The position numbers were made by a program, and so were the translations under genes. Below are positions 3,101 to 62,766 of a stretch of DNA of 64,000 nt, one piece after another. The stretch spans positions 1 through 64,000 of the forward strand of contig JACPTF010000013.1 of the NCBI GenBank assembly GCA_016192915.1, written 5' to 3'. The notes under the pieces were generated by a model. That model made no database searches. It was given only the letters and a program-made list of their open reading frames with translations, and was not told where the DNA came from. Positions within the stretch are counted from its first letter, which is position 1, and every line of letters begins with the position of its first letter. This stretch comes from Candidatus Woesearchaeota archaeon. Its GTDB lineage: Archaea; Nanobdellota; Nanobdellia; Woesearchaeales; UBA10216.

Positions 3101-3387
3101 AATTCAGAAGAGGCGGCATCAGCAAAGGGGGAGAGGCAATGAAAAAAGAAGCAGCAGCTGAAAAGGAAGAAACCAAAAGTGAAGAAGAGCTACCAACCCC
3201 GAAAGTAATAAAGGCCACAGACCACGAAACCATTAAATTCCACGAAAGCCTCAAAAAGTTCGAAGAAAAGGAAAACCTAAGGCAGCAGAACCTTTTTAGC
3301 GAAGGTTCATCAAAAAACGAATCAAAAAATGAATCGGAATACGAGCACGAAACAGGCGAAGACCGGCGCAATGACAAATTAGAGTGA
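148..3387 (+). CDS. Large cysteine-rich, membrane-anchored cell-surface protein
   Basis: 1079 residues. There is a hydrophobic signal or anchor segment at residues about 6-24 and a second membrane segment near 960-980, followed by a charged tail of about 100 residues (presumably cytoplasmic), so most of the protein faces outward. Residues about 290-500 hold repeats, each of about 45-55 residues and rich in Cys, with variants of CDYCTPxW, which suggests disulphide-stabilised modules. An Asn/Thr/Ser-rich linker near 735-775 looks like a glycosylated stalk. An AT-rich TATA-like stretch at about 111-121 precedes the ATG. The function is unknown; adhesion, S-layer association or surface structure are possible. 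Near the C-terminus the code contains an ACCTTTTT hairpin-tail repeat reading QQNLFSE. Confidence 0.75.
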   Translation: MKRFVKVMALFAVFVLTLYVFDKLQPTITTVTKAAQPTPPTTYAVYEVRQLQWALDDQADYDYNSSLINLSSGEAKLKLQKVLKELKNQTTLTIQQKSSGKYNKKLEFESEPYSYKGTLKTLYFDAETPAQTSVKLKIRTASSQQALEEAEWQPKGKDYYTTTGQAITAEPNGYVQYKAVLETDDDTKTPMLNSVTITYETEEYPAEAAITTKEYSFARSVEIQKLKTEEQLNGQTVKYEYSTDSGQAWKTPVSGQVLAAAADKMLIKATLFSNKTETPAVNDIRLSYKISICDEKWQPNYTGCGKSNSRVKYYTDANSCGSTEDLPADNGTAESCDYCTPQWINVSSSCRSDDTITVSYLYTNTCCQETGLPSDCTIPQNTTTACDYCTPNWLETKGSCGANDRVTATFTDLNTCYAITGLQSDNNRPANKTYDCDYCAPSFVCGSYGDCGEDNKKACIQVNDSSSCYGKTGLASDNYTGNYSEFTASCAYDNERPNINSAIAAAIGDTLTVLANITDKSAITAIAHIIKDNDAVMNLTFTKTANNVYTASANAAELRGAYIVSIIAKDTYNNTATARGIAGVTLDSEKSEIKEIVLNSTGKALIVLANTATIEVRGKAEPTAPSVTGRIVVAEQATGKMNATRPQEKKELGMYIEIEADEALKSNVSSATLKISYTDQEVLAANLSETSLAIYYYDEPSLLWQQLNSTANAALNYVEGNTTHLSLFGVFGEQNQTINATFNATANATINATINSTSNTTSNTTENAQQSQAQPSDTTAAANAAGEEGASAGKEDSLQQTKPDEAAGETTKAQENCSYNVAVEVEDKPSFVNKTSITAALKNTGTCAIENLEVKVAQPLDDYVAIENGKAAKLEPEQSLTFTIKSKTAENREQAEQTAQGQPPQGFAVKEQRKTSTRKGKIIITGNAIKETALEGKLPLRQEVPLNIEVYELEQKSGKSGLAAMITGLVILAMLLTITYNRIIKFRRGGISKGGEAMKKEAAAEKEETKSEEELPTPKVIKATDHETIKFHESLKKFEEKENLRQQNLFSEGSSKNESKNESEYEHETGEDRRNDKLE
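3289..3322 (+). repeat. Hairpin-tail repeat inside the surface-protein gene
   Basis: The sequence aaccttttt, a short loop, aaggtt and a catcaaaaaacg tail matches copies at 31264 and 42279. It reads in frame as NLFSEGSSKNE near the C-terminus of the surface protein. Pairing is partial in this copy. Confidence 0.45.
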
Positions 3388-23680: not shown

Positions 23681-23864
23681 CAGTGCAAACCAGCAAAATT
23701 TTTCAAACACCAAACAAAGTAATTATTTTACGATGCAACAGTGGATGCGCAATATATAAATATTGCGCTGCGGCTTTTTGCGGCTGGCTGCATTAGTAAC
23801 CACTGCAGTCAACGACAATTTCACACCAAAACGCTTATAAAGCACTGCAAAAATCCTTCAAGGC

Positions 23865-23906
23865 ATGACCTTCTTAGGAAGAATGTCAATCAAGAAACGA
23901 AAATGA
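23865..23906 (+). CDS. Possible leader peptide of rpl15e (13 codons) on a hairpin-tail repeat
   Basis: A TATA box (cttataaag, about 23834-23842) lies the leaderless distance from the ATG at 23865, not from the rpl15e ATG. The mini-ORF reads MTFLGRMSIKKRK and its TGA overlaps the rpl15e start (ATGA). It is built from an ACCTTCTT-agg-AAGAA hairpin followed by GTCAATCAAGAAACG, the repeat also found at 45236. Translation of L15e may depend on re-initiation after this peptide. Confidence 0.45.
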   Translation: MTFLGRMSIKKRK

Positions 23907-30687: not shown

Positions 30688-31311
30688 ATGAGCAACCTGA
30701 AGAAGTGGGTACTGGCAGTGGCAATAGCGATAGTCCTAAACCTATTTGTCAACTATGGAATAAGCGTCTTCTACAAAGCACCCCAATATGACGACTTCTG
30801 CAAGGACAGCATGAGGCCCTACCCCTACAAGATCTACCCGGCCGAGCCAGCAGCGCAGCAGCCAAAAGAGTGCGCAACAATAGAGGTAAGCGAGGAGCTC
30901 CAGAAGAGCTGCGGTGAGCAGAAAGGCTACATTAGCTACAAATACAACACTACAGGCTGCCCGACAGAAGCACACTGCGAGCTGTGCGGCAAGATGTTCG
31001 AGGACATTAACCAGAAACGCAACTCCAACGTCTTCGTAATACTGGTTGTTTTTGGCGTGGTTGCCATAGTTGCCGGATTTGTGCTCAAGGCAGAAGCCGT
31101 TGCCAACGGATTCCTCTTCGGCGGAATACTAAGCCTTGTTATTGCAGCAATAAGAAACTGGGGACAGCTCCAGGACATATTCAAATTCATAATTCTCGGG
31201 GCGGTGCTGGCGCTGCTGATATGGATAGGCTACAAGAAAGGAAGCGCGCTTATCCCACAGCACAACCTTTTTCCTAAAAAGGTTGATCAAAAAACGAAAA
31301 AGAAAAAATAA
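30688..31311 (+). CDS. Membrane protein with Cys-rich extracytoplasmic loop
   Basis: 207 residues. A hydrophobic N-terminal segment (about 6-24), then a loop of about 90 residues with six to seven cysteines (CATIEV, CGEQ, GCPTEAHCELCG), then three membrane segments and a basic tail. The ATG is preceded by a purine-rich aggggcagaaag. The final about 20 residues (QHNLFPKKVDQKTKKKK) come from a hairpin-tail repeat at 31264-31299, so the natural C-terminus probably ended near SALIP. Function unknown. Confidence 0.6.
   Translation: MSNLKKWVLAVAIAIVLNLFVNYGISVFYKAPQYDDFCKDSMRPYPYKIYPAEPAAQQPKECATIEVSEELQKSCGEQKGYISYKYNTTGCPTEAHCELCGKMFEDINQKRNSNVFVILVVFGVVAIVAGFVLKAEAVANGFLFGGILSLVIAAIRNWGQLQDIFKFIILGAVLALLIWIGYKKGSALIPQHNLFPKKVDQKTKKKK
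31264..31299 (+). repeat. Hairpin-tail repeat forming a C-terminal extension
   Basis: AACCTTTTT-ccta-AAAAAGGTT (9-bp perfect stem) followed by GATCAAAAAACGAAAA. It is nearly identical to the copy at 42279. It is read in frame as NLFPKKVDQKTK at the end of the membrane protein gene. Confidence 0.75.
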
Positions 31312-38775: not shown

Positions 38776-40059
38776 ATGAGGATAATTTTTGACGGGCACA
38801 TCCACAGCAGCTACAGCAGGGCATGCAGCAAGGACTTGAGCCTTGAGAACCTTGAAAAGTATGCAAGGATAAAGGGTGTAGGGCTCCTTGGAACTGGCGA
38901 CTTTACCCATCCGAAATGGCTGCAGGAAATAAAAGCAAAGCTGAAAGAAGATGAAAACGGCGTGCTTTACAGCAGCAGCGGCTTCCCTTTCGTTTGGCAA
39001 ACAGAGCTTTCTTTGGCGTACACACAAGGCGGCAAAGGAAGGAGAATACACTACATCATACTGGCACCGAGTAGCGCAGTTGTTGCGCAGATAACAGAAT
39101 TCCTTCTAAAGAAAGGCAGGGTGGATTATGACGGCAGACCAATATTTGGAATGAACAGCATCGAGCTCCTGGACGAGCTGTTGCGGATAAGCAACGATAT
39201 TGAGCTCATACCGGCGCACGCGTGGACAAGCTGGTTCGGAATATTCGGCTCAGAGTCAGGCTTTGACTCCCTAAAGGAGTGCTTTGGCGACAAAGTTAAC
39301 AAAATCCACGCAATTGAGACGGGAATGTCGTCGGACCCTGCAATGAACTGGCGCATACCCTTGCTAGATAACATAACTCTCACGTCAAACTCAGACTGCC
39401 ACAGCTACTGGCCCTGGCGCATGGGAAGGGAAGCAAACGTGTTTGAATTTAAGGAGCTTACTTACAAGAACGTGCTTGCAGCCATAAGGGAAAGAAAAGG
39501 ATTCGTTGAAACGATTGAAACCCCGCCTTCCTACGGCAAATACCATTTTGACGGCCACAGGCTCTGCAACGTTGTCATGAACCCAGAGGAATCAGCAGAA
39601 CACAAGAACGTGTGCCCAAAATGCGGCAAGAAACTAACAATTGGAGTGCTGAATAGGGTGAACGAGCTGGCTGCTCCTGATAGGCTAGAGGGATATGTCA
39701 GGAAAGATGCTGTTCCATTCAAATCCCTAATACCACTTTCCGAAATAATCGCTGAACTGAACGGCTTCCCTGTTGCCAGCCGAAAGACGTGGCAGGTTTA
39801 CAATGCCCTGATTGAGAGGTTTGGGAACGAATTTAACGTTTTACTGGAAGCGACAGAAGATGAATTGAAAAAAGTTGTGGACGAAAAACTTGCAGCTGCC
39901 ATAATGAAAAACCGCGAGGGCAGGATAACGGTCGAGCCGGGCTACGACGGAGTATACGGCAAGCCGGTGCTTGACGGCAACAGCGAAAGAGGCAGCGGAA
40001 GAAAAGCAGAAGCAGCTGCAGCTGTGAGAAGGCAGAAAGGGCTTAATGAGTTCTTTTAG
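38776..40059 (+). CDS. PHP-family endonuclease Q-like protein
   Basis: 427 residues. The N-terminal PHP domain shows DGHIHSSYSRA, GTGDFTHP, the PAHAWTSWFG block and SNSDCHSYWP, all metal ligands. A zinc-binding CPKCGKK segment and a helix-hairpin-like region with DRLEGYVRKDAVPF follow. This architecture is that of archaeal EndoQ, which cuts 5' to deaminated bases or abasic sites. TATA (aatatttaaat) lies about 30 nt upstream. The last about 30 residues are Ala/Gly-rich. Confidence 0.85.
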   Translation: MRIIFDGHIHSSYSRACSKDLSLENLEKYARIKGVGLLGTGDFTHPKWLQEIKAKLKEDENGVLYSSSGFPFVWQTELSLAYTQGGKGRRIHYIILAPSSAVVAQITEFLLKKGRVDYDGRPIFGMNSIELLDELLRISNDIELIPAHAWTSWFGIFGSESGFDSLKECFGDKVNKIHAIETGMSSDPAMNWRIPLLDNITLTSNSDCHSYWPWRMGREANVFEFKELTYKNVLAAIRERKGFVETIETPPSYGKYHFDGHRLCNVVMNPEESAEHKNVCPKCGKKLTIGVLNRVNELAAPDRLEGYVRKDAVPFKSLIPLSEIIAELNGFPVASRKTWQVYNALIERFGNEFNVLLEATEDELKKVVDEKLAAAIMKNREGRITVEPGYDGVYGKPVLDGNSERGSGRKAEAAAAVRRQKGLNEFF

Positions 40060-41690: not shown

Positions 41691-42253
41691 ATGGTCGGGA
41701 TTGACAAAAAAGAGGCATACGCTTTCAGGAAGAATGGAAAGAAAATGCTCAAGCTTGTAAAGTTCGGGAAAGGCGAAAACCCTGCAAGGCAATGGTGCAG
41801 GTACAAAAATCCAATGATTCAAGCAATTAACTATGCAGTAATGCTATTCTGCAAGCTTCTGCCTCCATGCGAAATAAAAAACAGCCTTTACAGGCTGATT
41901 GGAGTCAAAATCGGCAAGAACGTTTCCATATCAAACGACTGCATAATTGACACTATATTTCCAGAGCTTATAATGATTGATGATAACGCCATAGTTGGCT
42001 GGGGAACAAAGCTCTACACTCACGAGTTCACACAGACAACAGAAGGATAGGGACAATACACCTCAAGAGGAACAGCATGGTTGGAGAGTGGTCTGTAGTA
42101 AGACCAGGCACAGTTGTTGGGGAGAATTAGCTTATTGCTGCCATGTCATTTGTAAACGAAGACGTGGCTGACAACCTCGTGGAAGGAGGAGTACCAATAC
42201 ACATAATAAAGCACCTAAAAAAGCTGAAGGAAAAACGAAAGGGCAAAAAATGA
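41691..42253 (+). pseudogene. Hexapeptide-repeat acyltransferase, frameshifted with an in-frame TAG
   Basis: The first 102 codons read as a left-handed beta-helix acetyltransferase (RLIGVKIGKNVSISNDCIID, then the HEFTQTTE active-site loop). One base appears missing near 42043-42048, because the next frame continues IHLKRNSMVGEWSVVRPGTV. This second part meets an in-frame TAG at 42128-42130 (GEN-stop-LIAAMSFVNEDV) and then runs to a TGA at 42251. The downstream sequence remains well preserved, so decay is recent, or the errors are from sequencing. TATA (aatatataaac) directly precedes the ATG. The final stop overlapped the original start of the next gene. Confidence 0.8.
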
Positions 42254-42314
42254 TCCCTGAAAACTGCACGTTCTGCGCAACCTTTTTAATAAAAAGGTTG
42301 ATCAAAAAGAGCTA
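42250..42314 (+). repeat. Hairpin-tail repeat with duplicated gene start
   Basis: An ATG at 42250 begins 28 nt that encode MIPENCTFC, interrupted by AACCTTTTT-aata-AAAAAGGTT and GATCAAAAAG (42279-42310). The mini-ORF ends in a TAA that overlaps the real ATG at 42315 (TAATG), where MIPENCTFC is encoded again with six synonymous changes. The first copy sits in the ATGA overlap with the upstream gene, so it is the original start. Confidence 0.75.
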
Positions 42315-42740
42315 ATGATACCAGAGAACTGTACATTTTGCGGCCTGTGCTGCACATTGACTGTGAGGCTGAGCGAGAGGGACATAAAGCGAATAGAAAA
42401 AGGCAGCGGCCGCAAACGAGAAGACTTTGTTGTTGCCGATAACGACGGGAAGCCGCTGCTGAAGCGGGAAAAGGGATGGTGCACGTTCTTCAAAAGGGAA
42501 GGCAGGGTTGGAATATGCACGATATACGACAGCAGGCCTGACAACTGCCGCGACTTCCCTGGAAAAAGGCTGTGCGACCTTGCAGAAAACCCACTTTATA
42601 GGCACCTGAGCGACAACAACGAAAACAAAAGAGTAAGGCTGCTGCTGAAAAACGCGCCAACTTCAGCAACACCTGCAAAAGCGATAGAAGAAGCCCAGCA
42701 GAATGCAGCAGAGACATTCAAAGCGATTTCTGAAAAGTAG
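42315..42740 (+). CDS. YkgJ-family cysteine-cluster protein
   Basis: 141 residues. The N-terminal CTFCGLCC, then GWCTFF, GICTIYDSRPDNCRDFPG and the last Cys CD match the YkgJ/UPF0153 family, which carries a metal (zinc or iron) cluster and has unclear function. The C-terminal about 50 residues are Ala-rich and helical. The end overlaps the convergent nth gene by 23 nt. Confidence 0.85.
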   Translation: MIPENCTFCGLCCTLTVRLSERDIKRIEKGSGRKREDFVVADNDGKPLLKREKGWCTFFKREGRVGICTIYDSRPDNCRDFPGKRLCDLAENPLYRHLSDNNENKRVRLLLKNAPTSATPAKAIEEAQQNAAETFKAISEK

Positions 42741-60879: not shown

Positions 60880-61003
60880 GGGGCCATGGGGCAGCTTGGT
60901 CTAACCTATCTGGTTTGGGACCAGATGACCCCGGTTCAAAACCCTTTTGCGAAAAGGGTTTATCCAAAACCGACGCAAAGGGATGAAAGTCCGGGTGGCC
61001 CCA
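60880..61003 (+). tRNA. tRNA-Pro(TGG) with a T-loop intron
   Basis: Acceptor GGGGCCA/TGGCCCC with A73, anticodon arm TCTGG-TTTGGGA-CCAGA. The T stem CCCGG/CCGGG closes only after removing a 49-nt intron at 60941-60989, between TTCAAA and T60. A bulge-helix-bulge can be drawn: CCCTTT(t)GCG/CGCAAAGGG, bulge AAA, TTCA/TGAA, bulge AGT. The intron also forms a competing CCCTTTT-gcga-AAAGGG hairpin followed by TTTATCCAAAACCG, similar to the hairpin-tail repeat. Confidence 0.92.
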
Positions 61004-62664: not shown

Positions 62665-62680
62665 AAAAGGTTAAATACGC

Positions 62681-62766
62681 ATGACCTTTTTGCCGAAACC
62701 AAGTCGTCAATGACGACTGGTCCCATCGCCTATGGCGATGTGGAAAGGTCAATCAAAAACCGCACA
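62681..62766 (+). repeat. Nested hairpin-tail and palindromic element at the GTPase start
   Basis: GACCTTT (62683) pairs with AAAGGTC before AATCAAAAACCG, the hairpin-tail repeat. Its loop carries CCAAGTCGTC-aat-GACGACTGG and CCCATCGC-cta-TGGCGATGTGG, the two-part palindrome. The element ends at the canonical ATG (62767). A TATA-like ttaaatac lies at 62671-62678, and an ATG at 62710 within the element opens the GTPase frame. Confidence 0.7.

Follow-up and report, generated by a model that had tools for sequence, protein, structure and literature searches.

Doubled gene starts around a small dispersed palindrome in a genus of uncultured woesearchaeal archaea

Introduction

How does a gene come to carry its own beginning twice? 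In the woesearchaeal DNA examined here, a stretch of 64,000 nt (the window) that is part of an 85-kb contig in a 1.2-Mb draft genome of 20 contigs (labelled G000), the peptide MIPENCTFC is encoded at 42250 and again at 42315, on either side of a hairpin, and at no other site in the 1.2-Mb genome searched (a reversed-pattern control gave 0). The right copy (X') opens a complete gene for a CxxCxxCC protein, which we take to be ykgJ, and the left copy (X) runs into the hairpin. A first-pass annotation held that silent divergence cannot have taken place in a truncated copy, and that one of the two must derive from a diverged homologue by gene conversion, lateral recombination or the joining of strains during assembly. 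Neither the dispersed nature of the hairpin nor the recurrence of the pattern had been noticed at that stage.

Results

Direct reading confirmed the doubled start and its main features (Table 1). Six of the 28 nt differ between the two copies, every one at a third codon position (six synonymous and no nonsynonymous differences over nine codons), and X continues through the element as a mini-ORF, all as first annotated. The loop, given there as aata, is corrected here to the 3-nt AAT, which closes a perfect stem of 10 bp. The RNA fold at this region is mildly stable (z -1.78).

Table 1. Features of the doubled start and further copies of the element in the window
Feature	Position	Strand	Basis and remarks
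Hexapeptide-type acetyltransferase-like gene, degraded	41691..42253	+	name by eye, no Pfam match
Left copy of gene start (X), MIPENCTFC	42250..42277	+	read directly; ATGATCCCTGAAAACTGCACGTTCTGCG
Mini-ORF, 21 codons, from X through the element, ends TAATG	42250..42315	+	read directly
Element hairpin, 10-bp perfect stem, 3-nt loop AAT	42278..42300	+	stem arms CAACCTTTTT/AAAAAGGTTG
Conserved element tail ATCAAAAA	42301..42308	+	pattern search and alignment
Spacer GAGCTA before the second ATG	42309..42314	+	read directly
Right copy of gene start (X')	42315..42342	+	read directly; ATGATACCAGAGAACTGTACATTTTGCG
Complete gene (ykgJ), CxxCxxCC putative Zn/Fe-chelating domain protein, 141 aa	42315..42740	+	family search
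Further element copy	31260..31296	+	covariance model
Further element copy, inside a tRNA gene as read by eye	60936..60972	+	not called by ARAGORN or Rfam
Further element copy, second palindromic sequence nested inside	62679..62762	+	covariance model
Weaker element copy	3285..3319	+	covariance model
Weaker element copy	23863..23899	+	covariance model

The surroundings of X indicate which of the two starts is native. The TGA of the upstream acetyltransferase-like gene overlaps the ATG of X (ATGA), and in the related genome G006 an intact acetyltransferase-like gene runs into ykgJ through the same ATGA overlap, without the element. Because this relative has the same layout, and because the end of the broken upstream gene still overlaps the first ATG in G000, we regard X as the original start of the operon. 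The comparison is one of gene layout only, there being no close insert-free relative for ykgJ among the genomes compared; in G003 and G005 the gene has different upstream neighbours. The upstream gene in the window carries a one-base frameshift near 42045 and a TAG at 42128-42130, and its remaining sequence is well preserved.

The hairpin at 42278 is a copy of a dispersed palindromic element of about 31 nt, specific to the genus and made up of a covarying 10-bp stem and the tail ATCAAAAA. A covariance model found it in all eight genomes of this woesearchaeal genus and in none of 11 other genomes of the family. With 150 candidates scored per genome, so that the counts are lower bounds, at least 67, 30, 49, 1, 85, 65, 123 and 6 copies were recovered in the eight genomes in order (E 0.01). 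The exact pattern occurs 14, 6, 16, 0, 20, 20, 33 and 0 times in G000 to G007 (reversed control 0 in all); among 145 genomes of the order, its own included, it was found only in G000 and, as a single occurrence, in one further genome. Of 109 copies, 107 have complementary bases at the three outermost stem pairs, for which seven different triplets are used (e.g. TGA/TCA, AAA/TTT, CAA/TTG); compensatory pairs occur at three stem positions, all 25 of the model sequences are paired, and the loops vary between copies. Because the stem covaries while the loop is free to vary, the hairpin is conserved as a palindrome and not as a TATA box, and a terminator was rejected on the same grounds. No Rfam family matched the element above the gathering score, two tRNAs being the only Rfam matches in the window, and a literature search for a palindromic element in Woesearchaeota found no paper; broader queries gave none on such an element among the matches listed.

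Element copies tend to keep out of long open frames, although about a quarter lie in one. In all, 23 of 139 (16.5%) lie no more than 40 nt upstream of a start codon, compared with 5.4% of random positions, and 36 of 139 fall inside long open frames, compared with 57% of random positions, in what is a rough ORF test rather than annotation. The left flank favours GCA. By eye, copies sit behind tRNA genes and stop codons, and one lies within the anticodon-loop intron of a tRNA in G001 (L038 1444-1571); a tRNA with such an intron was also seen in G005 (L077 662-795). Within 60880-61000 of the window, a copy occupies the T-loop place of a tRNA-like sequence (GGGGCC...GGCCCCA). A second type of palindrome (CCCAAGTCG-like and CGATGCC-like hairpins) is nested in the element at three sites, namely the window copy marked in Table 1, L120 (the PHP gene of G006) and L137 (the aldo/keto reductase gene of G000). 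In L107 (G006:C75), three 53-nt units stand head to tail with one element copy apiece. A DNA-alkyltransferase-like gene of G004 (L184, G004:C24) contains a variant of the element in frame, adjoining PCHRV, which we take to be a motif of that gene. Mobilisation of the IS200/IS605 type, hinted at by TTTTTGAT beside the hairpin on the other strand, was considered and rejected since Y1_Tnp is missing in most carriers: among the eight draft, incomplete genomes, Y1 (PF01797) matched only in G004 (once) and G007 (twice) and not in the carriers G000, G001, G002, G005 and G006, so that a match was missing from five of the six genomes in which the exact pattern occurs.

Comparison with relatives, which had been proposed as a check in the first-pass annotation, revealed doubled starts around the same element at other genes in G005 and G006. 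The doubled start is a real, recurring pattern in one group of uncultured archaea. The start-element-start arrangement was found six times, at five different genes and in three of the genomes: ykgJ (G000), an aldo/keto reductase and a nucleotidyltransferase gene (both G006), an epimerase gene (G005) and a PHP gene (G005 and G006), where all names other than ykgJ were read by eye from the sequences. Scored systematically, a repeat of the left flank just past the element (score of 12 or more) was present for 7 of 145 copies, compared with 0.4 expected from mismatched flanks. Two of these seven form one tandem array and the other five are gene starts, in each of which the left copy ends no more than 2 nt from the left edge of the element; the G006 PHP case falls outside the 145 copies, its element being interrupted by another palindrome. 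A gene end, rather than a start, appears doubled around the element as a 10-nt exact repeat at one locus common to two genomes (L088, G000:C10; L075, G005:C19).

This recurrence bears on two of the possible origins. An assembly chimera of two strains would be conceivable in a draft of 20 contigs, in which repeats can misjoin. However, a misjoin at a repeat would still require a genuine X-element junction in one genome, and the structure is found in three assemblies, at several genes and each time abutting the same element, with the gene-end version at one locus in two of them; this part of the first-pass proposal is therefore very improbable. That the gene once had a full-length tandem duplicate, since deleted except for X, would account for the silent divergence, but every relative in the genus has at most one match to the gene and none has two, which also led us to reject a tandem paralogue. 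Such a duplicate would moreover leave both the recurrence at other genes and the exact element edge unexplained, and we find it scarcely credible.

Across the six cases X and X' range from identical to 39% different. Pooled, 27 codons differ silently and 8 change a residue, and over the stretches compared X has neither a stop nor an indel relative to X'. Third positions are G or C in 14 of 53 codons of X' and in 31 of 53 of X (nominal p 0.0015; the codons are not independent), the reference value being 0.50 for codons 2-12 of 43 long ORFs of the window. The AT-ending codons of X' may have been selected to keep the start open next to the hairpin, and they would also suit divergence in place. 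The intact state of X in all six cases, together with the predominance of silent differences, is what would be expected if X were still used, whether it serves as an alternative start or a leader or provides the take-off site for re-initiation or bypassing; the TAATG that ends the ykgJ mini-ORF is suited to re-initiation. This explanation is nonetheless improbable, as the mini-ORF ends vary among cases and a leader would need no amino acids in common with the gene. An archaeal mRNA intron or translational bypass was set aside as unneeded, since X' restores the frame.

At the PHP gene an empty site is available for comparison. G000 lacks the insert (window position 38776) and G005 carries it, in flanks that are 145/153 and 79/84 identical (94-95%); the insert is 73 nt long and comprises the element and a complete, recoded start, with a few bases in between. 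X of G005 and the G000 gene both encode IFDGHIHSS, and X' of G005 encodes IADLHIHSS, as does G004, the IADL residues being found also in most of the more distant relatives compared. Because X' has this family motif and 12 of its 36 nt are unlike those of X, it would not easily have arisen by mutation since the insertion. The X' copies of G005 and G006 are alike and AT-ending, and their X copies show few differences, mostly silent, as continued use of X would also predict. The two inserts may represent one old event rather than two recent ones, in which case the long-intact first copies lack an explanation. Between species, identity along the PHP gene is a patchwork of 60-nt blocks at about 0.7 to 1.0 (L117-L120; the last block, at 0.53, is a gapped end), which suggests exchange between species. 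In the epimerase gene of G005 compared with G000, the first two 60-nt blocks after the second start are at 0.75 and 0.63, and later blocks mostly at 0.77-0.93, with one at 0.55.

At the nucleotidyltransferase gene of G006, X and X' share the same 26 nt without a difference. The duplication carries an alanine codon private to G006 among the genomes compared, which places its origin within the G006 lineage. These identical copies fit an insertion of the element that makes a long target duplication (about 20-40 nt), after which the copies would diverge in place, with the silent sites of the working one changing by drift or under selection for AT-rich codons beside the hairpin leader. The close abutment of the left copy on the element in the five scored gene starts, the poverty of X' in third-position G/C and the 10-nt flank repeat at the locus common to G000 and G005 all fit as well. 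As a general explanation, however, target duplication, the main rival to recombination between relatives, is possible but doubtful: at the PHP gene the flanks closely match the empty site, yet one third of positions differ between X and X', X' bears the family motif and is not a mutated X, and the insert must have been lost secondarily in G000; nor does it account for X copies that show no decay.

Discussion

We lean towards an origin of the two starts in diverged relatives, joined at the edge of the element by one-sided homologous recombination. Recombination with a diverged homologue, the part of the first-pass proposal that holds up best, is favoured because X' at the sister locus is not derivable from X by recent mutation, and the coding constraint on both copies is in keeping with it. 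One-sided homologous recombination between diverged starts is favoured in view of the recoded PHP insert and the uneven identity profiles of the epimerase and PHP genes. The earlier statement that divergence is impossible in a truncated copy was too strong, long divergence in place and a still-used X being candidates as well. Under one-sided recombination, X at 42250 would be the resident start, fused through ATGA to the upstream gene, and an incoming or previously separate allele would have borne the element immediately 5' of its own start X'. The right side would then have been fixed through homologous pairing inside the gene, and the left side would be an illegitimate joint at the base of the hairpin. 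The product would read X, element, X', gene, with X' working as the start and X a recent leftover. In the portion of the bacterial literature available to us, such one-sided events go by the name of homology-facilitated illegitimate recombination. The proposed donor allele, with the element and a matching X', was not found in any genome examined. Against recombination stand the identical nucleotidyltransferase copies, made within a lineage, and the low third-position G/C of X', which a random donor would not predict. An unlikely further reading is that the element and the recoded start form a self-rescuing unit, travelling or arising together, in which the palindrome would enter gene starts and bring a working start with it, the altered codons blocking recombination from removing the element.

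A small repeat repeatedly leaves probably hybrid gene starts in uncultured archaea, with an empty site to compare. Such loci give direct access to the question of how tiny non-coding palindromes spread when no transposase is in view, and to the frequency of cross-species recombination in these archaea. It also counsels caution for gene callers at start sites that adjoin such repeats.

Several known systems share some of these properties. Going by the available part of the REP/RAYT report (PMC2817692), REPs resemble the element in being short, numerous and lineage-specific palindromes, one foot of which is conserved in sequence. REPs, however, are nearly all extragenic, have a GT(A/G)G head and track with a Y1 transposase, whereas about a quarter of the element copies sit in open frames by the rough ORF test, most carriers gave no Y1 match, and the consensus lacks that head, one foot bearing ATCAAAAA instead. 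Set against a classical MITE, which has terminal inverted repeats and short target duplications, the element is a single hairpin, with flank repeats (10-41 nt) at a few copies only. The palindromic elements of Rickettsia, as described in the portion of PMC10969869 available, are likewise dispersed and also found in open reading frames, but they are bacterial, about 150 bp long and encode a conserved peptide, in contrast to the archaeal element of 31 nt. Yeast mitochondrial GC clusters (GC42) are short palindromes spread by recombination between species, and the accessible text (PMC4478555) describes variable loops with held stems, merged copies and a proposed co-conversion of flanks, as might be said of the element. 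They differ in being mitochondrial and GC-rich and in having target repeats of 2-3 nt, and that text makes no mention of a doubled gene start. Finally, in the mORF hybrids of Allomyces and Glomus, as far as the available part of PMC3630166 goes, an insert stands between the native end of a gene and a replacement for it that is diverged but largely synonymous; the native remnant resembles close relatives, and the working copy is unlike them. The fungal inserts are endonuclease ORFs and lie at gene 3' ends. The archaeal insert is a non-coding palindrome of 31 nt, found mostly at gene starts, and the PHP insert, at 73 nt, holds no such coding sequence. The arrangement here works much as in those hybrid genes, in which a diverged and mostly synonymous copy takes the place of the native end, and at the PHP locus we likewise find a native remnant like that of close relatives beside a diverged working copy.
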